41,790 nucleotides of DNA from a virus: IMG/VR virus record IMGVR_UViG_3300034375_002979, positions 1-41,790 of that record; one strand, given 5' to 3'. Positions 5,160 through 32,960 of the stretch are shown one piece after another. The position numbers were made by a program, and so were the translations under genes. How positions within the stretch are numbered: position 1 is the stretch's first letter; every line of letters starts with the position of its first letter. Below the pieces are notes generated by a model that did not search any database, had not been told where the DNA came from, and worked only from the letters and a program-made list of their open reading frames with translations.

Positions 5160-8100
5160 ATGCCCGTAGTAAGAATGCCGGACGGCCAACTTGTACGTTT
5201 CCCCGAAGGGACTTCAAAAGAAGCTATACGAAGTGCTATACAGAGCAAGTATCCGGGTTTTGGGAAACCTTCTTTGGGCACAATCGCGGACCGAGCGTTG
5301 GGTAGGGGCGTCCAAAACTTAGAAGCTACCCTGAAGGATGAGTTACCTGCCTATCTTGCTTCTATAATTGGGCAAGATGAGTATGCCAAAGAACAGTTGG
5401 CTGAAGCTGAACAGCGAAGAGCCGCTGCGGCAGAGCAATACCCCACACAATACGGTAGTTTCAAAGACGTAGAGTCTATTGGCGACGTTGGCGGTTTTAT
5501 AGCAGAAAAGTTTGCTGAGAACGTGCCTATACTGGCTGGTTTAGGTGGAGCTGCTATTACTGGTGCTGTTGCTGCGCCTTTTGTCGGGGTTGGTGCCGCT
5601 ACGGGGGCAACGCTTGCGGGCGCGTTAGGCTCTTACTCTCTTATGGCTCCAGAGTCTTTTGCTGGTATATATGCAGAGACCGGAAAGATCGAACCCGCCG
5701 CCGCTTCTATAGCTGGCGCCGTTAACTCTGCACTTGAGCTTGTCGCACCCGTTCAGTTAGTACGAAGCTTCTCCCCTAGCATGCGCAGCGCTGTTGTTGC
5801 CGCCGCACTTAAAAAATCAGGTATGGCCCCAACTCTAGCAGTTAATGCTGCAAAAGGTGTGGTTAAAGGTGCAGCTACAGAAGGTCTTACCGAGGGTGCG
5901 CAAGAGTCAGTTAACATTGCTGCCGAAAACTTTGTATCTGAAAACCCTGAAATATTCACCGAAGAAAACATTAGCCGAGTGTTGGAATCTACGGTAGCTG
6001 GCGCTGCTGTTGGTGTGCCTCTTGGTTTTACGGGCGGGGTAGGTAGAGGTTTTACGCAGAGAGCAGAAGCTAGAAGGTTAGAAGAAGAACAAGCCGCTGC
6101 TCAGATTCCTGAAGAAGTAGCTATAGAAGAGCCAGTAGTAGCCGAGCAGGCTGCACCTGAAGCCCCTGCAACCGTAATCCCTACTGATAAAGCCGCACTT
6201 AACAAGTGGGGCATGGCTATGCTGGGTATTTCACCCAATGCAAAAATACTGCGCCCCGATGGACCCTTGGCGGGCAAAGACCTTACTGACCCAGCACAAG
6301 CTGCTGAAGTAAAAACAGCACTCGAGGAGTATTTAAAAACCGCCAAGAACGAAAAAATAATCAGCAAAGTAAAAGCGGTACTTAGAGACTTAGAACCTAC
6401 TGGTACTTTCGCTGCTGAGCCTACGGTTGCCCCTGCTGCCCCTGCTGCCCCTGTACTTGATGAAGACATTCCTGAGCCTGTGGTTGTCAAGAAAGAAGCG
6501 GCAAAGCCTGTTGCTCCAGAAGTAGCGGAAGAACCTGCTATAGACGAAGAGCTGGCAACAAGAGGTTTCCAAAAAGCAGAGGCTCAAGACGAAACTATTG
6601 TAGGCGAAGACATCCCCGAAGATAGACCGTTGTGGTCTAAAGACTTGCTTGGTTTCCTCACTGACGAGTATGAGTTTACTGAGGCAGAGCTTGCGCAGGT
6701 ACAGAACTTCTCCGAACCCGAGATGCGTGATTTCTTAGCGGAAGTTGAAGCACGAGATAACTTAGTATTTGACGGTCCTCTTGTTGAAGAAGAGATGATA
6801 GTACCTCAAGAACCTCCTGCCGCTCAGCCCGTTGAAACCGCAGTAGCACCAGAAGACGACGGTGTGGGCCGAGTTAAAGACCCTGAGCAAGCGAAAATAG
6901 TTTTTGAAGAGCTTGGTGTTAACGAAGAAGAATCCTTTAACTTAACTGACGAAGGCTTCGATACTTTGGTGCGCACAGCACAGGCACAGCGAGCAGAGAA
7001 AACAGCGGCGCCTAAGGAAAAGACCCTAGAAGACTTGTTTGCAGAACGTGATGAAACCTTCGCTAAGCAACGAGCAGAGTTGGACGCACGTAAAGAACAA
7101 TTAAACAAAGAAGCACAAGAGCGGGCGCAAATAGAGCTAGATAGAATTAGAGCTGCTGCCCCCGTTGCAAAGAAAGCTGCGCCTGCTGCTAAGAAAAAAC
7201 CCCCTGCGGTTAAGAAGTTTGGGGAAGACAAGCTGGCCTTTAGGAATAAGCCAATGCCTAACAAGGCATACCAAGAGCTAGCTGCGTTAAAAGCAGCTAC
7301 GTCCCCACAAGAAGAAGCTACGGACGGACGCCAAGTTCTTGCTAATTACTTGCACGCCTACTCAACTCCTGAAGGCGCTATAGCCGCTATCGCTGCTGAG
7401 TCTAATGTTGACTACACAGAAATAGAAAATAAGAAACTCGCAGCAACCGTAGTGGACGCACAAAAAGCTGGTGCGTACATAAATAAGAACATGGACGAGT
7501 CCGTAAAAGACGCGTTTAAAAAGAACGTAGATTTTGTAACAAAAGAGTTAGCTTCCGTACAACGCAGGAACGCTAAACAAAAAACAAATGCTGAAATAAG
7601 CAAAATAAGCGAGCTTGGGCGTAGCAAAACAGAGAAAGACCTTAGCCAAGCTGTAAACAAAGATGCGCTAAAGGTTGATCGCAAGCTAAAAAGAAAAAAG
7701 AAAAAGCTGGTCGGTGAAACCCCTGAGCAGATAGCCAAGCGAATAGACAAAGAGCGTAGAGACGCGGAAGCTGAGTCCCTTGCTGAATTTTCATTAGAGG
7801 CAGAACAAGAAGGTACTCTTGGTTACGTTGCGGCGATTATAAAAAATGCTCAAGGCATAGCTGAGAAAACAGAAGAAGAGTTAGGCCCACAGTCACGGAG
7901 CAATGAGTGGGTGAAGTTTATTGCTAGCCTACCGAAGACTAAACAAAAAACTTTCTTGGACAGCTACACACGCATATCTAAAGAGAACCCTAACTTAATA
8001 CCTGAGTCTGTTCGGGCACGCGTTGTTGCCGAAAACAAAAAAATTCTTTCCCAGAAGGACCAAAAGCGCCTAGTAAAGTTTGAGGAGAAGTTCTTACTCA

Positions 8101-11100
8101 AGACTCCTAAATACCAAGGCCCTGAGCTTGACCAGTTTGTAAAGCTAGACTTAGCTAATAATGACTTACAAACCGCTCTTGATATGGTTGCTAAAGGAAG
8201 GAATGCACGCGGCGCGGATAAAAACATCACTGCGCTTATACAAAAAATAAGGTCTAAAGTGGTTGGCACTAAAGTAGCTTTAGACGGCCCCGGTATAAAA
8301 GCGGCAAACCTAGACCCCCTACGCTCAGAAGCTTTGGAAGTTCAGGCAGGAGTAGAAGGTAAGAGTGCTGTTGAGGCGGCTAAGTTTATTGCCAAAAATG
8401 CTCCAACCAAAGATATGCAAGTATTGGCGGCAGCAATACAAAACAAACTTAGTGCGTACGAAAAAGCTGGTATGCCTGTAGATTTTAAGGTGATCCATTT
8501 AGGCGATAGCATTCCCGCAGATATGCAGAGTGCCAGAGGATTTCAACAAACTCAGATAAAGCGAGATAAAGGTAAGCCTGTAACTGTGGACCTGTCTGTA
8601 AGAGTGAATGGGGCTGATGTAACTGGCAAAGTTGGCACGTCGTATGAAGCAGTGACTCACGAGTTATTCCACGCCGTAACTACGCTACAAATATTCAATG
8701 TGGGAGAACTTAACGACGCTAGAACAAACCAAGCTACGGCTGATCTCCTAGATGTTACCAACTTTGTGATTGAACAGTATAACGCAAAGGTAAGAAACAA
8801 AGAAAAATTGTTGCCTATAGAAAAAGCTATATCTAAAAACCAAAACAACTTCTTAGATAATACTCGGGAGTTTGTTACGTGGGCTATGACAAATCCGGGG
8901 GCCTCAGAATACTTAGAGTCTATACCCTATAAAAAAGGCAACGCGTTTACCGCTTTTGTGCGAGCTATACGCAAGATGATTGGTCTGCCTGATTCAGCGG
9001 ATTCAAACACCGCTCTTTCTGAAACCATACGTATAACTGAAGTCTTGCTGGGTAAAAAAGCAGTTGCCGCAGCTATGCGAAAAGTACAAGCAGTAGAAGG
9101 TGCAGGTTACTCCGCTACTACCTTACCCAACATGGCTAGCGGTGCATACATACCCGGGCTTAACACCATAGTGCTCAGCACTAGGACTGGGTTAAACGAG
9201 CACACCTTACTGCACGAGTCTGGGCACGCGGCACTTGCACAAATACTAAATAACCGTGACCACCCTATCACTAAGAAGTTCATTGCGTTCTTCGAAGAAG
9301 TCAAAACCCGATTAGGGGAAGCTTACGGTGGATCAGACATACAAGAGTTTGCTGCTGAGTTCGTGGGTAACGGAGAGTTCCAAGCGCTACTGAAGCAGAT
9401 TAAACCCCCTAAAGGCGACAGTTTGTGGACGCGTATAATCCAGACTATCGCTGAGTTCTTTGGGTTGCGTAAAGCCGACACTGCTTATGACACCACGCTT
9501 AAGTTCTTAAACGACCTTCTGGATGTATCTCAAGGTATAGAGCCTACGCTTGCAGACACTTTGTATTTGGGCAATGGCGATGTTAACCAAGTGTTAGGTG
9601 AAGTAAGCGATAACATAGCGTCTCGTAATGTTGATGCGGCTTTAGACAAATTATCTAGAGTGAAAGACGATAAGGCTAGAGTATGGGCGTTGGGCACTGC
9701 CAGCCTTAGTAACCTGCAAAATATGTTTGGTGAGACCTCACCTAGATATAAGAACAAAAACCCGTTGCCCATCGGTAGGCTGTTACGAGCTATTGAAAAG
9801 AAGCGCGGCGAGGTTAACACAGAGATAGACAAGACTAGTAAGAACATACGGTCTATGACTAAAGCGGAGCGGGAAGCAACGCCTGCGCAAAGAAAAGCAT
9901 TTAATGACCTTGCTATTGACGGGCGTCTCCTCGGCATAGATATTTTTAAGCCCGCTCCTAAAGGAGCCAAGGCTAAGGCTGACTACCAGAAACTCATGAA
10001 TAGGTATAAAAACCTACCCAAGGGTCTGCAAGAAGCGTATAAAACTTTGCGTGAAGAGCTAGATAGGTATTTAAAAGAATACGTAGAGCTTATTAACGAA
10101 GTCCTTCCTTCAACAGCAGCGTCTAACCTACTAAAAGACTTCGCTACGCTAGAGGGTGTTGCTGCATACGTACCGTTTGGGCGTGACGGAGAGTATTGGT
10201 TCCGCTATAGAGACCCTGAAAACTTAGATGCTGAGGGAAACCCTAAAGAAACTCCTATGGCAGCAGAGTCACCCAGAAAGCGGGAGATGGCGGTAGCTGC
10301 GCTAAAAGCTAAGCATGGGGCGAACTTTGAAGTCCAAGTCTACGACAACATTTCTTCTATGCGTGTACCCAAGGGACTGCCCGAAGGCCAGTTTGTCACC
10401 AAGCTTGTGGGTGAACTTCGCAACAATAATGTAGATGAGAAGATAGTCGAGCAGATATACCAACAGTATGTCTCTATGTTCCCAGAGAACTCTATAATCC
10501 AGCAGTTCAAGAAGTCAAAGAATCTGCCGGGTATGGACCGAGACGTAATTACAGGCTACTCGAATGTTGCTATAAAGTGGGCAAATAAAATTGCCAACAC
10601 CCGCTATAACCCTGAAATAGAAACAGCAATTACCGAGATTGGTAGAGTTGCAAAGGAGTATCACGGCGGCGATAAAAACATTACGGCTGCTGCAAAAGGC
10701 TTACAGATGCAGGAAGATTTCTTCCTAAATCCAAGGGTTTCTCCTTGGGCATCTAGCCTTACTTTCGCCAGTTACTTTGAATACATACTTGGTAGTGTGT
10801 CGTCCGCTGTAGTTAACTTAACCGGCTTAGTGTTCATGGTTACCCCTATGCTGGGCGCACGGACCACTTACCCTAAAGCGCTTAGTGCATTACAAGCCGC
10901 AGGTGTAACGGCGACTCAAGATTGGGGCACTACAGCTAAGTACAAAAAGATGCACGACGAACTTGATAGCCGTGGGTTGTTAAAGCATACGCTAGCACGC
11001 GAAGCACTTGAAAGAGGTAAGACCAAAGGCAAGGACTTTAACGGAGTGTTTTATCGTACTGTTGACTTCCTCTCTACTCCTTTTGCGGCTAGTGAACGCT

Positions 11101-12239
11101 ATATGCGTTCAGCGACAGCCATTGCTGCTTATGATCTCGCCATGGCAAATGGGATACCATCGGAGGGCGTGCCCGCAAACAACCAAATGGCTGCAATAGA
11201 TTTCGCTGCTAAGATGGTGCGTGATGCGCACACTGGTGGTATGGCTGAAACTATGCCTCGTTGGATGCAAAACGATTTCGGTCGCGTAGTTTGGACGTTT
11301 AAAAATATCGTGTTCCAACAAGCCTACGTGCTTGGTACTGCTATGAAGCAGGCGTTCATAGACTCTGATTTACCCCCTGAAGTTAAGCGTGCCGCCATAC
11401 GCCAAGTACTTGGGACTTACGGTTTAAGCTTTGCATTCCTAGGGGTCAAAGGCATGCCGTTCTTCGGGGCAACTACCGCACTTATGCGTTTCGTGGAGTT
11501 CTTAATCCCAGATGATGACGAAGAGCCTTACGATCCCAAAGTGCAACTCAACGAAACGTTCGACGATTTTTTCTATCAGGGCATGATTGGCTCGTTGCTC
11601 AACGTAGATGTGAGTTCTCGTGCCGCGCTGGCTAACGATATTTTATGGCGGGATGACCCAAAAGCTATTGAAGACTATGGCTACGTACGCCAAGCGATGT
11701 TCCTTTTGGGCGGTCCCATGGCATCCTACGCAATTGGGGTAGAACGAGCCATTACAGAGGACTTACCAGCAGGTAGATACGATTTTGCTTTTGAAGGTGT
11801 AGCCCCTACGTTCTTACGCAACGGCGCTAAGTCCTTCCGATATATGCAGGAAGGTGCCCGCAACAGGGACGGAGACCCCATAGACACTGATATCAACGCA
11901 TGGAACTTGATGGTGCAGGCAATTGGATTTACTCCAGCCGACCTGTCTAATACTTTCGATCAGCGTTCAGCAGCTAAAAACTTCGAGAACAAGATTCTTG
12001 CAAGAAAACAACGCATACTAGATAAGTACAAAGCTGCTAAGAAAATGGGTAATCGTGAGTTAGAATCTGAGGCAGTGAGGGAAGCCCGCGAGTTTAGGCG
12101 CCAGTTCCCTACACTAATGGATGACAACACTTTAGAACGCTCATGGAAAGCAAGTGTTAGGGTGGATCGTGAAGACACAATGGCAGGCATTACCTTTACT
12201 AAGGGTCTGCGATACATGACTGACGAGTTCTTCGAATAG
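5160..12239 (+). CDS. Giant virion protein (2359 aa) with two zincin-like metallopeptidase motifs; polyvalent/ejection-type protein
   Basis: The first 30 residues (MPDGQLVRFPEGTSKEAIRS) match a short N-terminal module seen on large phage internal virion proteins. A hydrophobic Gly/Ala stretch spans about residues 120-170. Residues 300-720 are acidic or Ala/Pro/Lys-rich linkers. Two zinc-peptidase signatures follow: HELFH at 1167-1171 with REFVTW (E1237) downstream, and HESGH at 1352-1356 with EFAAE at 1396-1400. The C-terminal part (about 1860-2210) has several hydrophobic segments among charged helices, like large polyvalent protein domains. Likely role: it is ejected with the DNA, crosses the envelope and cleaves or protects against host factors. 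Multi-domain polyvalent proteins with zincins are known; the specific role here is inferred. No lysozyme or transglycosylase motif is evident. Confidence 0.82.
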   Translation: MPVVRMPDGQLVRFPEGTSKEAIRSAIQSKYPGFGKPSLGTIADRALGRGVQNLEATLKDELPAYLASIIGQDEYAKEQLAEAEQRRAAAAEQYPTQYGSFKDVESIGDVGGFIAEKFAENVPILAGLGGAAITGAVAAPFVGVGAATGATLAGALGSYSLMAPESFAGIYAETGKIEPAAASIAGAVNSALELVAPVQLVRSFSPSMRSAVVAAALKKSGMAPTLAVNAAKGVVKGAATEGLTEGAQESVNIAAENFVSENPEIFTEENISRVLESTVAGAAVGVPLGFTGGVGRGFTQRAEARRLEEEQAAAQIPEEVAIEEPVVAEQAAPEAPATVIPTDKAALNKWGMAMLGISPNAKILRPDGPLAGKDLTDPAQAAEVKTALEEYLKTAKNEKIISKVKAVLRDLEPTGTFAAEPTVAPAAPAAPVLDEDIPEPVVVKKEAAKPVAPEVAEEPAIDEELATRGFQKAEAQDETIVGEDIPEDRPLWSKDLLGFLTDEYEFTEAELAQVQNFSEPEMRDFLAEVEARDNLVFDGPLVEEEMIVPQEPPAAQPVETAVAPEDDGVGRVKDPEQAKIVFEELGVNEEESFNLTDEGFDTLVRTAQAQRAEKTAAPKEKTLEDLFAERDETFAKQRAELDARKEQLNKEAQERAQIELDRIRAAAPVAKKAAPAAKKKPPAVKKFGEDKLAFRNKPMPNKAYQELAALKAATSPQEEATDGRQVLANYLHAYSTPEGAIAAIAAESNVDYTEIENKKLAATVVDAQKAGAYINKNMDESVKDAFKKNVDFVTKELASVQRRNAKQKTNAEISKISELGRSKTEKDLSQAVNKDALKVDRKLKRKKKKLVGETPEQIAKRIDKERRDAEAESLAEFSLEAEQEGTLGYVAAIIKNAQGIAEKTEEELGPQSRSNEWVKFIASLPKTKQKTFLDSYTRISKENPNLIPESVRARVVAENKKILSQKDQKRLVKFEEKFLLKTPKYQGPELDQFVKLDLANNDLQTALDMVAKGRNARGADKNITALIQKIRSKVVGTKVALDGPGIKAANLDPLRSEALEVQAGVEGKSAVEAAKFIAKNAPTKDMQVLAAAIQNKLSAYEKAGMPVDFKVIHLGDSIPADMQSARGFQQTQIKRDKGKPVTVDLSVRVNGADVTGKVGTSYEAVTHELFHAVTTLQIFNVGELNDARTNQATADLLDVTNFVIEQYNAKVRNKEKLLPIEKAISKNQNNFLDNTREFVTWAMTNPGASEYLESIPYKKGNAFTAFVRAIRKMIGLPDSADSNTALSETIRITEVLLGKKAVAAAMRKVQAVEGAGYSATTLPNMASGAYIPGLNTIVLSTRTGLNEHTLLHESGHAALAQILNNRDHPITKKFIAFFEEVKTRLGEAYGGSDIQEFAAEFVGNGEFQALLKQIKPPKGDSLWTRIIQTIAEFFGLRKADTAYDTTLKFLNDLLDVSQGIEPTLADTLYLGNGDVNQVLGEVSDNIASRNVDAALDKLSRVKDDKARVWALGTASLSNLQNMFGETSPRYKNKNPLPIGRLLRAIEKKRGEVNTEIDKTSKNIRSMTKAEREATPAQRKAFNDLAIDGRLLGIDIFKPAPKGAKAKADYQKLMNRYKNLPKGLQEAYKTLREELDRYLKEYVELINEVLPSTAASNLLKDFATLEGVAAYVPFGRDGEYWFRYRDPENLDAEGNPKETPMAAESPRKREMAVAALKAKHGANFEVQVYDNISSMRVPKGLPEGQFVTKLVGELRNNNVDEKIVEQIYQQYVSMFPENSIIQQFKKSKNLPGMDRDVITGYSNVAIKWANKIANTRYNPEIETAITEIGRVAKEYHGGDKNITAAAKGLQMQEDFFLNPRVSPWASSLTFASYFEYILGSVSSAVVNLTGLVFMVTPMLGARTTYPKALSALQAAGVTATQDWGTTAKYKKMHDELDSRGLLKHTLAREALERGKTKGKDFNGVFYRTVDFLSTPFAASERYMRSATAIAAYDLAMANGIPSEGVPANNQMAAIDFAAKMVRDAHTGGMAETMPRWMQNDFGRVVWTFKNIVFQQAYVLGTAMKQAFIDSDLPPEVKRAAIRQVLGTYGLSFAFLGVKGMPFFGATTALMRFVEFLIPDDDEEPYDPKVQLNETFDDFFYQGMIGSLLNVDVSSRAALANDILWRDDPKAIEDYGYVRQAMFLLGGPMASYAIGVERAITEDLPAGRYDFAFEGVAPTFLRNGAKSFRYMQEGARNRDGDPIDTDINAWNLMVQAIGFTPADLSNTFDQRSAAKNFENKILARKQRILDKYKAAKKMGNRELESEAVREAREFRRQFPTLMDDNTLERSWKASVRVDREDTMAGITFTKGLRYMTDEFFE

Positions 12240-12434
12240 CTACACCCGCCAAATACGGATGCCTTGAACCCCGTCTTCTAAAACGATCTTGTGTACGAAC
12301 TTGTACTTAAGGCGTTTTAGAGTCGGGGTTATTTCTTTCAAAGCATTGGGCGGATCAAGGCAAGGTATAAAGAAAGAATACCCCACCTTAAAGTTTTTCC
12401 AGTTTATCTCGTACCTAACCTTCTCCACCTGCAT
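12240..12434 (-). CDS. Small conserved-looking protein (64 aa)
   Basis: The ATG at 12434 overlaps the 3' end of the primase-helicase gene by 20 bases, and the stop is at 12240, the base after the + strand virion gene ends. The protein ends GVQGIRIWRV. The layout is a basic N-terminus, an FKVGYSFFIP strand, a helix and a final strand ending in WR. It resembles the 72-residue protein at 19799-20017 in layout, so the two may belong to one small family. The function is unknown. A longer reading from 12494 is possible but would overlap the primase-helicase further. Confidence 0.65.
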   Translation of the reverse strand: MQVEKVRYEINWKNFKVGYSFFIPCLDPPNALKEITPTLKRLKYKFVHKIVLEDGVQGIRIWRV

Positions 12435-15282
12435 CTTCGTCACTCGTAGGTATAAGTGCATCCATGTCCAAGAAGTCTGGATGACTAGCGTCAAATATCA
12501 AACACCGTACTGCCGTGGACATTAAACTACTGCCCTTAGCTAAGCGCTTATTATCTATTTTTAATAGTACACCGTTTTTCTCTAACTGTTTTAAGGTGTC
12601 TTTGTAGTTAATTTGCAGGTCTACACAGTCATCTTTAAACGTTTTAGCGGTTATAAATAGCTTCTTTGTGTCGGGTTCATACCGCATTAAGAGCGCACCT
12701 TTTGGTAGAAGCTCTGGGAACTTACCGATGTTAGTGCGTTGGTCCACGCCGTCTTCTACTACTAACATGTTGTTGTTATGCCGGTTAATGAAGTCACCTA
12801 CCACGGTGCTAGGGTTGCTGACTGGAGCCGTTGTATCCTTGCGCATCTCAAGTACGTGCTTTGATATTTCGCTGTAGATTTTTCCAATGTTCCACCCTTC
12901 TAACAAACCTAATCTTTTAGCTATGTAGCCCCCTGCAATGTTTACCGCTAGTACAGCAGACCAGTTACGTTCCCTCTGACTAAGGCGAAGCTCTTTATCA
13001 ATCTTGGCTTGCACCTTAAAGATAAGGTCCTTTACTTCTTCTAGGTTGCCTATTACATACTGCATATAAACTTCCCCAGCTACTCCGTAGTTACTATTCA
13101 ACATGTGATCTAGTATGTCCTTTCCTTCTTGAGTAGAGATAATAGGTTCTGCCGTGTAAGGAACTTTAAATTCTAGTAGACGCATCATTTCGCCATCAGG
13201 GTTATTTTTAAGTACGCCAAGCTTTTCGTAGAACGACGCATTAGAACTTGCTATGGAGATTGTCCTCCACGTTATGCTGTTCTCCCGAAGCTCGTTTGCA
13301 CTAGCCTTTGCTTTATCTTTACCCCTACCTTGTGAGTAAGCATACAGCGTTCTTGATGCGTCAGCCGGACTCATGTTGGTTATCTCGTCCATGGTGTTAA
13401 CTATGTTATTCAAGAAACCAATCTTCAATATCTTTCCGACATCGGTATCGTCAGGCGTGCCAAGCAGCATTTCAGGATCACCAAATATGCTATTAGCCAT
13501 ACGCAAGATTGTTGTCTTGCCCGTGCCTGAGTCGGAGTGGATAAAGTTTATTACCGCACCCTTTTGCCCAGTAAACTTTAGTAGTGGGGCACCAAAACCA
13601 GACAGTGCACCAAACGCCTGCACTTCGAGTCCTTCCCTACTATACAGCTCGAAAACTTCTTTCCACCTTTCCAATGAGCCTTTCGGCTGGAAGTAAGGAA
13701 CCATATTAGCAATGGCGCTAGCAGGGGGGCTATGGTAAGTATCCGTAGCTTTTATTTCCCTGTCGCCTACAATAAATACGCTGTCGTTATCAGCCCATCC
13801 AAATTGCGATCTCATAATCTGTGCCTTGTTCACATGTTGAAGCTCTCTAATAAAAGCCAACAAGTACTCCGTTATATACTTATGACGAGTCTCGTTGCCG
13901 ACTACGCCGTACTTAGCTAGTTCTTTACGCAGCTCACCACGCTCGGTAAGCTTTGTGTTAGATACTACAAATTCCTTTACACCGTCTTTTGGTAAGTGGT
14001 GCTTGAGCACTGCGACGAACCCAATTATAGGGTCTTCCATAAGCTTAACTACGTACAAATCATTGTCGTATACGAGCTTAGGTTTAGAAGCTTCGTCTTC
14101 GTCGTCGCCGTTTTCTCCTTCTTTGTATATACCCCCGTTAGCACCTCGGAAGTAACCATCAGGGAGAGTAGGTATCTTGTGCTCTTCTACCAGTTCGCCT
14201 TCTACAGCAACCGTGACCGTAGAGCTTTTGGCTCTAGCAATGACACGACCCAGAGATATAGGACTCTTAATCTTTTCTCTGTGCGGGCAACCCTCACACC
14301 CGCCGGGGTTATTTATCTCAAACTCGACACAACTGTGTGGGCCTTTTATGCCCAGTACTTTTTTCTCTACTAGCGCATAGTCGTAGTCTGGGTGCCCTTC
14401 AGACAGCTTGTGTATCGCCGTGTCTCGGTCAGAACAAAACTTAGCAATGGATAGGGCATCGAACCAACGCGGTTCTGCGAGGGTAGCCCTGTCGGTGTAG
14501 CAGGCTGCGAGTTGATTGCACCCTTCTCCTTTACCAGTTAACTGCATGATCTTAGAGAACACGGAGTCGTTGTTTTGCATTAACGCTTTGCCCATGGCAG
14601 ACATAGGTCGCCTAGGCTTTACTGTTTCCCCTTGCGATACCCCTACAATATCTCGGATAACACCGAAGGGAATGGGGTCTACTACGCTTATAAGCTTAAC
14701 CGGCTTTGGCTCTACCCCGTCAGCGTCTCCTTTAAAGTTAAAAGAGTTGAGTGGACGTAACACCCTAGCAGACTCAAATACCTTAGTGTCTATATAGAAC
14801 TCTTTATCTATGCAGAGCTGCCTAAGTCTTTTAGCTACCAGTGTCCACTCATCCCTAGGCACATCCTCAGCCAAAGGCCAATAAGCGTGCAGCCCGTTAC
14901 CCGAGTTAACCAGCATTGGCTTCGGTAGTCCGACGTCTAAACAAAACTTACGTAGTGCTACTAGTCCGTCTTGTTGTGTTTCGTACCCACTTGGCCTGCC
15001 AGTTTTTTCGTCCGCAAAGGACTTGTTTGGTCCACAGTCTATGTCTACCCAATATGACTTGAGAGACTCGACGTTATCTTGTGTACGGCTCTTACCGTTT
15101 TCAAACTTTGCCAAAGCAAAGAATACGCACCATCTATCTGCTACATATTTTTCTATCTCGGCGTCTAGTTCCTCTCTGGTTTCCACCATAAACTGACGCG
15201 TTGTAGTCTTATCTTTGACCGCAAGAAAACCGTACCACCCACCCGCAGGGCGTACTAGGTCTATGAGGTCTGCGTTTTCCAT
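12415..15282 (-). CDS. Primase-helicase (AEP-type primase fused to a DUF927-like helicase domain)
   Basis: The protein has 955 residues. The N-terminal part looks like an archaeo-eukaryotic-type primase: WVDIDCG with acidic D80 and D82, then SGNGLHAYW with H132, then ESARVLRPLNSFNFK. A Cys cluster (CEGCPH, about residue 330) may bind zinc. The C-terminal half has a Walker A GTGKTT with K589 and a Walker B-like MDE (D632, E633), in a context like DUF927 helicases. Role: primer synthesis and fork unwinding for phage replication. It is the last large gene of a leftward unit with HTH, SSB-like and coiled-coil genes. The start is an ATG with GGAG upstream. Confidence 0.87.
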   Translation of the reverse strand: MENADLIDLVRPAGGWYGFLAVKDKTTTRQFMVETREELDAEIEKYVADRWCVFFALAKFENGKSRTQDNVESLKSYWVDIDCGPNKSFADEKTGRPSGYETQQDGLVALRKFCLDVGLPKPMLVNSGNGLHAYWPLAEDVPRDEWTLVAKRLRQLCIDKEFYIDTKVFESARVLRPLNSFNFKGDADGVEPKPVKLISVVDPIPFGVIRDIVGVSQGETVKPRRPMSAMGKALMQNNDSVFSKIMQLTGKGEGCNQLAACYTDRATLAEPRWFDALSIAKFCSDRDTAIHKLSEGHPDYDYALVEKKVLGIKGPHSCVEFEINNPGGCEGCPHREKIKSPISLGRVIARAKSSTVTVAVEGELVEEHKIPTLPDGYFRGANGGIYKEGENGDDEDEASKPKLVYDNDLYVVKLMEDPIIGFVAVLKHHLPKDGVKEFVVSNTKLTERGELRKELAKYGVVGNETRHKYITEYLLAFIRELQHVNKAQIMRSQFGWADNDSVFIVGDREIKATDTYHSPPASAIANMVPYFQPKGSLERWKEVFELYSREGLEVQAFGALSGFGAPLLKFTGQKGAVINFIHSDSGTGKTTILRMANSIFGDPEMLLGTPDDTDVGKILKIGFLNNIVNTMDEITNMSPADASRTLYAYSQGRGKDKAKASANELRENSITWRTISIASSNASFYEKLGVLKNNPDGEMMRLLEFKVPYTAEPIISTQEGKDILDHMLNSNYGVAGEVYMQYVIGNLEEVKDLIFKVQAKIDKELRLSQRERNWSAVLAVNIAGGYIAKRLGLLEGWNIGKIYSEISKHVLEMRKDTTAPVSNPSTVVGDFINRHNNNMLVVEDGVDQRTNIGKFPELLPKGALLMRYEPDTKKLFITAKTFKDDCVDLQINYKDTLKQLEKNGVLLKIDNKRLAKGSSLMSTAVRCLIFDASHPDFLDMDALIPTSDEDAGGEG

Positions 15283-15286
15283 TAGG

Positions 15287-15520
15287 CTACTGCTCCAACT
15301 TTGCTATGAATTTTTCTATCTTCATTGCTACTGGGGCTTTAGGATTGGAAACTCCTGCAAACCAGTTATAGACGGCTTGACGGCTGACATCTAATTTCTT
15401 AGCCACTTCGGCAACGGGCACATCGTGTTTGATGCACACCGCGCCAAAGTAAACGCCAAGAAGCTTTTTGTCGGCAGCCTTATTTAACTCCATAAGTTTT
15501 AGGCTATATCCGTAACTCAT
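15287..15520 (-). CDS. Small Cro/C1-type helix-turn-helix DNA-binding protein (77 aa)
   Basis: The core PVAEVAKKLDVSRQAVYNWF, at about residues 34-53, is a textbook helix-turn-helix: A/V at the first helix, then a turn, then SRQAVYNW as the recognition helix. The rest is short and helical, so it is probably a dimeric regulator without an effector domain. Its ATG overlaps the stop of the SSB-like gene as TAATG, so translation is coupled. It is a candidate regulator of phage promoters or of the repeated palindrome at 25951-33939, but no target is shown. It could also be a modulator of replication, given its position. Confidence 0.85.
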   Translation of the reverse strand: MSYGYSLKLMELNKAADKKLLGVYFGAVCIKHDVPVAEVAKKLDVSRQAVYNWFAGVSNPKAPVAMKIEKFIAKLEQ

Positions 15521-16425
15521 TAGGCGTCTTCACTCCCCCACTCGTCAATAATAGATGCTAGCGGGTCTTCGCTTTCAGCCGCAGGAGTTTCTTCTTCCTT
15601 CTTCTTAGTACGCTTTACTGGCTCCGCTACTTCTTCCTCTTCAGGTTCTTCGGAACGCGTGACTACAGGTGCAGGCTTATCAAGCTTTGGAGTTTTGCTT
15701 ACTCCATCAGTCTGCGCAGCAGTGAGCTTAGTGTACATCTCGGTCTCAGGGCGTTCTTGTGCCGCCAAAACTAGCGCATATTCTGCATCGCTGACCTCGC
15801 GTACTGGAGAGAATACTAGCTCCATAGTTTCTGCGTTGCTGTCGAAGCTTATGTTAGTTACAACGAGGTCAGGTGACATGCCGTTATTTACGAGGAACTT
15901 AACGTAGCTTTCGAAAGGGTGGATGTTGCCAGTGCCTTTACCGAACAGAGATTTTGCTGGGATGTTAAACTGGTACACTGTGCCAGACTCATCACCCTCA
16001 AGCATTAGAGAAACTCGGCGTTGGTAGCGACAAGCTTTACCGCCATTATCACCCGAGCCTTTTATGTTTCTAGGGCAGTCTGCGCAGTTACCATGCTGTG
16101 GGTCGGATGCACCTGCTTCAGGCTTGTCGCCGTTGTTTGACCAGCAGTTAGGTAGCGTAGCTTCTTTGTTGGGGTCGAACTTTTCCTTGTAGTAGATGCG
16201 AGAGACATTAGTCAGCATGCCAACAACAATAGCATTGAACTCACCTCGGATAGCGTTACCAACTTGCTCTCCGTTAACCATCTTCTTAAACGTGCCGTTG
16301 ATGTTAGCCTGAATGCGGCGGTTGCTTACTGTAGAAGTAGTGGCAAGCTTTTGTGCCAAGGCGCTTTGGCGGCGCTCTGTAGACACGCCGGTTTGTCCTG
16401 TAAAAATTGAAACATTGTTACTCAT
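15520..16425 (-). CDS. Probable single-stranded DNA-binding protein (301 aa)
   Basis: The C-terminus is a long acidic tail with a charged linker, ending DPLASIIDEWGSEDA, as in many phage and bacterial ssDNA-binding proteins where the tail recruits replication partners. The central region has a possible zinc site: a Cys near residue 93, then CADCPR and a later Cys-Arg-Tyr. Strand-rich sequence follows. The gene lies directly upstream of the HTH and primase-helicase genes and downstream of a coiled-coil gene, a replication context. I see no OB-fold signature strong enough for certainty. AGGAAA lies upstream of the ATG. Confidence 0.65.
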   Translation of the reverse strand: MSNNVSIFTGQTGVSTERRQSALAQKLATTSTVSNRRIQANINGTFKKMVNGEQVGNAIRGEFNAIVVGMLTNVSRIYYKEKFDPNKEATLPNCWSNNGDKPEAGASDPQHGNCADCPRNIKGSGDNGGKACRYQRRVSLMLEGDESGTVYQFNIPAKSLFGKGTGNIHPFESYVKFLVNNGMSPDLVVTNISFDSNAETMELVFSPVREVSDAEYALVLAAQERPETEMYTKLTAAQTDGVSKTPKLDKPAPVVTRSEEPEEEEVAEPVKRTKKKEEETPAAESEDPLASIIDEWGSEDA

Positions 16426-32130: not shown

Positions 32131-32162
32131 AAAGTTCTCCAATGTTACGTTTTTGATAAACG

Positions 32163-32182
32163 AGTTTAGTTTTGACTAAACT
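32163..32182. repeat. Palindromic element copy 5 (leader of the 32130 unit)
   Basis: The sequence is AGTTTAGTTTTGACTAAACT, about 40-60 nt downstream of the predicted start point of the promoter at 32229-32257. Confidence 0.92.
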
Positions 32183-32228
32183 CAGGGTCGCTTGCGGGGA
32201 ATAAAAATTTCCCAACCAACGAATAACA

Positions 32229-32257
32229 ATTATAGCATACTTACTATACAATGTCAA
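32229..32257 (-). promoter_or_regulatory. Consensus sigma-70 promoter for the MoxR-VWA block
   Basis: On the - strand, TTGACA (32257-32252), a 17-base spacer and TATAAT (32234-32229), all consensus. The predicted start is near 32222. The leader carries palindrome copy 5, one GTTACGTTTT copy and GGAG for the gene starting at 32130. Confidence 0.88.
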
Positions 32258-32655
32258 GTGGTTGTTACAAAAATAAATAAAATAATTTTGAGTGTTATGG
32301 AAGGAGAGGCAGGGGGGCAATGTTACGTTTTGGGGGCAATGTTACGTTTTAAAATGGTTTTGTAACAATAAATGTAACAATGCAAGGTCCTTGTATTTAC
32401 TGTGCTGCGTTACGTTTTTCCCTATTATTGTTATATTGTTATAAAAAATAGTATATATATATAGACCCCTGCGTTTTTTGTAACAGTGCAGAGGGGTTTG
32501 TTTTGTTACGGGGTAAGAGGGATTCTTTCCCCTGCATACTACTTTTAAAACGTAACAATATAACATTAGGGGAAACCCTGGTATTATCATACACTTACAT
32601 TGTTTATCTAATGTTACATATTAGTTTTAAGCCTGAAAAAACGTAACATTACCCC

Positions 32656-32675
32656 AGTTTAGCCAAAACTAAACT
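32656..32675. repeat. Palindromic element copy 6 (one base changed)
   Basis: The sequence is AGTTTAGCCAAAACTAAACT. The single change from the consensus breaks DNA symmetry by one pair; on a leftward RNA it would become a U-G pair that keeps the stem. Confidence 0.88.
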
Positions 32676-32837
32676 CCGAACTGCTTGAACTACTATCATG
32701 ACTCGCGGTTTGTATTGTTATGTTTTTACAATGTTATAAAAGTGTTATGGTGGAACAGCCAGGGGTAACCAAACTACTAGCTACCAAAACTACTATCATC
32801 ACACAGTGATGATGAAGCGGCGGCGTGGGCGCGTGGT

Positions 32838-32860
32838 GGGTTGTGGTGGGACGGGCAGGG
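32838..32860 (+). other. Potential G-quadruplex motif
   Basis: Four GGG runs at 32838, 32848, 32853 and 32858 have loops of 7, 2 and 2 bases on the + strand. The surrounding 70 bases are strongly G-rich. Formation is not shown. Confidence 0.5.
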
Positions 32861-32892
32861 ACAAGGTGCGATGGAGGAGGGCGGTGGGAGGC

Positions 32893-32912
32893 AGTTTAGT
32901 TTTGACTAAACT
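32893..32912. repeat. Palindromic element copy 7
   Basis: The sequence is AGTTTAGTTTTGACTAAACT. It lies seven bases downstream (leftward) of the T-run of the terminator at 32920-32943. Confidence 0.92.
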
Positions 32913-32919
32913 CGAGACG

Positions 32920-32943
32920 AAAAAAAGCCGCCCGAGGGCGGCT
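32920..32943 (-). terminator. Intrinsic terminator after the 61-residue gene
   Basis: On the - strand, AGCCGCCC and GGGCGGCT pair across a two- to four-base turn and are followed by seven T. It lies 18 bases after the stop of the gene at 32961-33146. Confidence 0.9.
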
Positions 32944-32960
32944 TAGTCTAGCGAAGGGGA

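Follow-up and report, generated by a model that had tools for sequence, protein, structure and literature searches.

The window analysed here is the whole of record IMGVR_UViG_3300034375_002979, 41,790 bases from a tailed phage. Complete-looking relatives with overlapping ends measure ~63 kb, and the window is therefore a fragment. Leftward genes occupy 12.4-34.2 kb and encode DNA polymerase A, helicases, a nuclease and a primase-helicase, while packaging and structural genes run rightward from 34.2 kb on. The nearest isolate terminases, those of phage 023Pt_psg01, DSL-LC04 and Pelagibacter phage HTVC027P, are ~55 % identical and close isolates are lacking; a search of isolated phages for direct DNA similarity to the window returned none, and a scan of bacterial genomes for a host gave only short, low-trust matches to MAGs. 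Isolates and metagenome context together suggest a freshwater provenance for the phage family. At its left end (1-222) the window carries eight copies of a 27-bp tandem repeat, GCCTACTATAATAGAGCCTACACCTAC. The 2359-aa product of 5160-12239 shows weak similarity to virion RNA polymerase over aa 764-1313 and weak DarB-like antirestriction similarity over aa 1669-2342.

The largest gene-free gap of the window spans 830 bp between likely genes (32131-32960); the next largest is 296 bp. The initial annotation had proposed this gap as a candidate origin of replication on account of its repeats, and the elements it listed are all present: six exact copies of GTTACGTTTT, forward at 32144, 32322, 32341 and 32409 and reverse at 32547 and 32638, a perfect 19-bp tandem duplication (GGGGGCAATGTTACGTTTT, 32313-32350, forward strand) with two iterons inside, an AT-rich stretch, palindromes and a G-rich tract (32816-32892, 60 % G). 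No further exact copy of GTTACGTTTT was found outside the gap in the 41.8 kb. The sequence AACTACTATCAT occurs twice on the forward strand, at 32688-32699 and 32788-32799. The right border of the gap is formed by an intrinsic-terminator-like hairpin with a T run (32925-32944, reverse strand), which ends the upstream leftward gene. An 82-aa ORF inside the gap is unsupported as a gene because single-base gaps break its frame in relatives.

The annotation had listed the decamer as the repeat; its copies are confirmed, but the underlying iteron is shorter, ~WTGTTAC(G/A), with the decamer as its most frequent form. A site scan together with unbiased k-mer clustering over 38 loci delimits an array of 18 TGTTAYR sites at 32143-32751, with forward sites at 32143, 32263, 32293, 32321, 32340, 32429, 32437, 32504, 32612, 32716, 32732 and 32743 and reverse sites at 32361, 32373, 32479, 32551, 32559 and 32642. 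Shuffled sequence yields 2.5 such sites on average and never more than 4, against these 18 in 700 bp, which rules out chance or artefact as the source of the array. The locus therefore offers the clustered short repeats, unique in the replicon and above chance, that mark an iteron-type origin. DnaA boxes are absent from the gap and a single TTATNCACA-like site occurs in the 41.8 kb, at 37665, so that the cluster of DnaA boxes typical of a DnaA-dependent origin is not found.

Duplex stability calculated for 40- and 60-bp stretches across the whole window places the least stable DNA in the middle of the array, starting at 32423. This stretch (32423-32482, 80 % A+T) is the proposed DNA unwinding element, and it provides the AT-rich, easily melted DNA beside the iterons that is expected of an iteron-type origin. 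In six of the 11 relatives tested (G003, G005, G009, G027, G031 and G035) the least stable 60 bp of the record likewise falls inside the array. The iterons mostly face this weak point. Pooled over the related loci, 75 forward and 36 reverse iterons lie to the left of the weakest DNA and 39 forward and 118 reverse to its right, and an inward excess is seen in 32 of 35 non-tied loci; since the loci are related, the Fisher p of 3e-12 for this orientation is indicative only. When TGTTACG alone is counted in the window, three forward and no reverse sites lie on the left, and one forward and two reverse on the right.

The absence of the repeats from close relatives had been named as evidence against an origin. 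The comparison finds the repeats retained in close relatives, and the proposal is not refuted. Among 38 loci anchored on the terminase gene (terL), the top result of an unbiased search for any clustered 7-mer is the AATGTTA(C/T)G family, which sits at about -2.0 to -3.5 kb. Family-wide, in dozens of related phages, the array precedes the terminase gene by about 2-4 kb; it stands far above shuffles in the window and ~21 relatives, and a clear array was not seen in some of the relatives examined. Conservation in relatives is a further property of iteron-type origins that the array displays. Alignment to three relatives (L086, L087 and L009) delimits a conserved core of the proposed origin at 32340-32652, with identities per 60-base block of 83-97 %, 73-92 % and 68-88 %, respectively, while many neighbouring blocks drop to 17-60 %. 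In L086 both flanks have been replaced (17-48 % identity) and the core alone remains.

Other relatives carry a different repeat in the same slot: TGTAAGA in G003, G029, G049, G050 and G052, TGTTAGA in G027, G046 and G053, TATTAGA in G032 and G034, and TGTTGTA in G024. The TTCGTAC repeats of G016 and G047 were considered as iterons and left out, being palindromic boxes. An additional element, AAGTYNTTGATT, matches 26 times within the array zone and 4 times in the rest of the 6.5 kb, is found in 20 of 37 loci and is absent from the window. The right end of many relatives' arrays carries (G)AGAACTRTCAT / GAGAACTGGT elements related to AACTACTATCAT, and sites resembling AACTACTATCAT or GAGAACTRTCAT mark the right end of the array in the family.

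At its left edge the array meets a consensus sigma-70 promoter directed at the leftward early genes (32257-32229, reverse strand; TTGACA-17-TATAAT, 12/12 matches, TG before the -10), and the gap is located upstream of the leftward early operon. Nearly all family genomes also encode a Cro-like HTH protein, represented in the window by a 77-aa HTH_3/Cro-like product (15287-15520, reverse strand). These features give rise to the main rival of an origin, namely that the array is an operator whose iterons bind a phage repressor or activator, for example the Cro-like protein, to control this promoter, with no role in initiation. We consider this unlikely. Eighteen sites over 600 bp, most of them far upstream of the promoter, exceed the needs of an operator, and their inward symmetry centres on the least stable DNA. 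They cluster at the array locus, and a second full-consensus sigma-70 promoter of leftward genes (34010-33982, reverse strand; 12/12, 17-bp spacer, TG before the -10) is without any.

Better operator candidates are dispersed palindromic boxes. The box AGTTTAGTTTTGACTAAACT at 32163-32182 recurs in the gap at 32656-32675 and 32893-32912, and the window holds eight near-identical palindromes of the form AGTTTAGT-4-ACTAAACT (25951, 27671, 30326, 31533, 32163, 32656, 32893 and 33920), six of which sit 13-90 bp upstream of leftward genes. The relative L009 has AGTTTAGG-5-CCTAAACT at similar places, and the palindromes of other relatives read CCTAACA(A/AT)TGTTAGG or TTTCGTACCGTACGAAA. These boxes are probably a regulatory system separate from the iterons; they may serve the 77-aa Cro-like protein as operators or form hairpins in 5′ UTRs. 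The Cro-like protein would be a rival DNA-binding partner for the boxes or for the iterons, and the boxes with this protein make more natural partners in regulation than do the iterons. A replication origin is thus what the array most likely represents, in preference to an operator region.

The terminase genes are 2-3 kb away from the array, and contigs of relatives tend to break off 640-950 bp upstream of terL, which hints at a nearby end of the genome; among 80 terminase loci, 21 end 600-900 bp upstream of terL. The repeats could on these grounds be a packaging or partition site recognised by the terminase or by a segregation protein, which we regard as very unlikely: genes separate the array from the inferred end, which lies ~1.5 kb further right at ~34.2 kb; none of the proteins scanned was recognisable as ParA/ParB-like; and a packaging site would not be expected to contain an AT-rich unwinding element. 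The contigs of relatives end at ~34180-34265 from both sides (L005 at 34263, L006 at 34243 and L007 at 34239; L086 at 34181 and L087 at ~34252), probably because the genome has a fixed end at this place, or else because the C-rich tract breaks the assembly.

The initial annotation recognised no initiator beside the gap. None adjoins it, but at a distance of 17 kb lies the gene of a strong candidate, with the gene of the Cro-like protein just upstream of this candidate gene. This 955-aa protein (12415-15282, reverse strand) combines N-terminal primase-like motifs (WxDIDCG and GxHAYW), a DUF927 helicase (Pfam PF06048, 7e-27) whose region is homologous to the SCCmec Cch helicase (PDB 5dgk, 7e-14), and a conserved C-terminal domain (~aa 858-935). 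The C-terminal domain gave no significant structural or Pfam match; the Pfam Cch HTH reaches E 0.16 in only one of 10 members. All family records of sufficient length to show the gene carry the DUF927 primase-helicase. Three outgroup isolates have neither a DUF927 protein nor an array, and these outgroups differ in much else. In phage Rollin, whose DUF927 protein is 28 % identical, no comparable array was found in the stretch scanned. Cch, itself a DUF927 protein, is related to SaPIbov1 Rep, and the C-terminal domain of SaPI Rep binds iteron origins (PMC7581432). For AEP-DUF927 proteins with a C-terminal winged helix, recognition of origins is predicted (PMC5862659). We give the DUF927 protein an even chance of being the iteron binder.

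A different location for the origin is suggested by pRN1-type and phage BIP-1 replication proteins, which are thought to use stem-loops (PMC4234260). Replication could start at such a structure immediately downstream of the gene for the DUF927 protein (12240-12414), with the array only assisting, and in the window this stretch does fold with a z of -3.0. In relatives it reads as a conserved small protein and has no consistently significant fold (z of -0.1 to -3.1 in the relatives scored), and a pRN1-type stem-loop origin was rejected as highly improbable. The small protein itself, unannotated and encoded on the reverse strand between convergent genes (12240-12414), reads ...INWKxFKxGYSFFIPCL...GIRIWRV in relatives.

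Taken together, the conserved place of the array, the in-place iteron swaps, the inward orientation and the central position of the weakest DNA strengthen the proposal of an origin, and we put the probability that replication starts in the gap 32131-32960 at about 0.75, as judged from sequence comparison. Short iterons of the form ~WTGTTAC(G/A) would flank the AT-rich unwinding element, mostly directed towards it. Binding of an initiator to the iterons would open the DNA at 32423-32482, a replicative helicase would be loaded on each strand, and forks would depart both ways. The most likely initiator would be the primase-DUF927 helicase that the phage itself encodes and that is related to SCCmec Cch and SaPI Rep; its C-terminal domain would recognise the iterons, and the protein would then act as helicase and primase for the family-A DNA polymerase of the phage. 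The explanation as a whole, with the gap as origin and the DUF927 protein as its most likely initiator, appears likely to us. Counted against it are the distance of 17 kb to the candidate initiator gene and the consensus promoter at the array edge, which allows a regulatory role, as are a GC-skew minimum away from the array and the relatives in which no clear array was seen.

An origin of this kind is probably iteron-type, a kind already known. The closest likeness is to the SaPI and SCCmec modules (Rep, Cch and Cch2), which share a helicase of the DUF927 family to which Cch and SaPIbov1 Rep belong, encoded in the element itself, and a cluster of short iterons as proposed sites for a self-loading initiator (PMC7581432). 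In those modules the origin adjoins the rep gene on its downstream side, whereas the phage array is 17 kb from the candidate gene; the proposed phage origin therefore falls outside a strict SaPI module. The array moreover lies beside late genes of a ~63-kb phage with its own family-A polymerase, and in the phage primase and helicase are one protein whose binding to iterons is putative. The AEP-DUF927 primase-helicases PrimQH and All3500 have a similar layout of primase domain, DUF927 ATPase and a C-terminal domain thought to recognise the origin; the portion of their description available to us (PMC5862659) gives this domain as a winged helix, whereas its phage counterpart is known as a conserved domain only, and that portion describes no iteron origin, unlike the phage array. 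Iteron plasmid origins and the phage P4 ori likewise pair an AT-rich unwinding element with clusters of short repeats; the phage differs in having iterons on both sides that point inward and in the lack of DnaA boxes, and no homology of its proteins to iteron plasmid Rep was recognised. With pRN1 and BIP-1 (PMC4234260) the phage shares a fused archaeo-eukaryotic primase and helicase and a gene for a small DNA-binding protein beside the replication gene, but it has an iteron array rather than a stem-loop, and its proposed origin lies away from the replication gene.

If this is right, a widespread, little-studied family of aquatic phages gains both a replication origin and an initiator that can be tested, and DUF927 primase-helicases would move from a predicted to a testable class of phage initiator. 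The repeated in-place iteron swaps would form a comparative set for how initiators and origin repeats change together. A residue pattern of this sort was first spotted by eye in fewer genomes and then tested by ranking all 955 DUF927 columns in 25 genomes with assigned iterons. Columns 926 and 911 ranked top of 955 against iteron type, with comparable results for terminase and portal controls: column 926 is R with TGTTAY and H/Y with TGTxAG, and column 911 is N with TGTTA and mostly T/V with TGTAA. In a control on 21 genomes, terminase and portal columns were equal or better for the first trait; common descent can therefore explain most of the DUF927 co-variation, which we rejected as proof of binding after this control. 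Parallel change is argued for by a single pair, G048 against its sister G029. We offer only tentatively, as a rather doubtful extension, that a pair of primase-DUF927 hexamers in opposite orientation is loaded by the two inward iteron sets onto a single unwinding element, and that iteron sequence and R926/N911 switch together across independent lineages in a natural series of origin-initiator specificity.

Cumulative GC skew, suggested as a check on the origin, does not turn at the array. Its minimum in the window is at 34395, ~2 kb from the array and at divergent promoters, and in six relatives it falls 0.1-0.6 kb before terL, again at divergent promoters and away from the array; a turn at such promoters is compatible with an origin ~2 kb off without lending it support. 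In G021 most replication genes are 80-92 % identical, but the 301-aa protein encoded at 15520-16425 (reverse strand) reaches only 29 %, and it looks to have been replaced by recombination.
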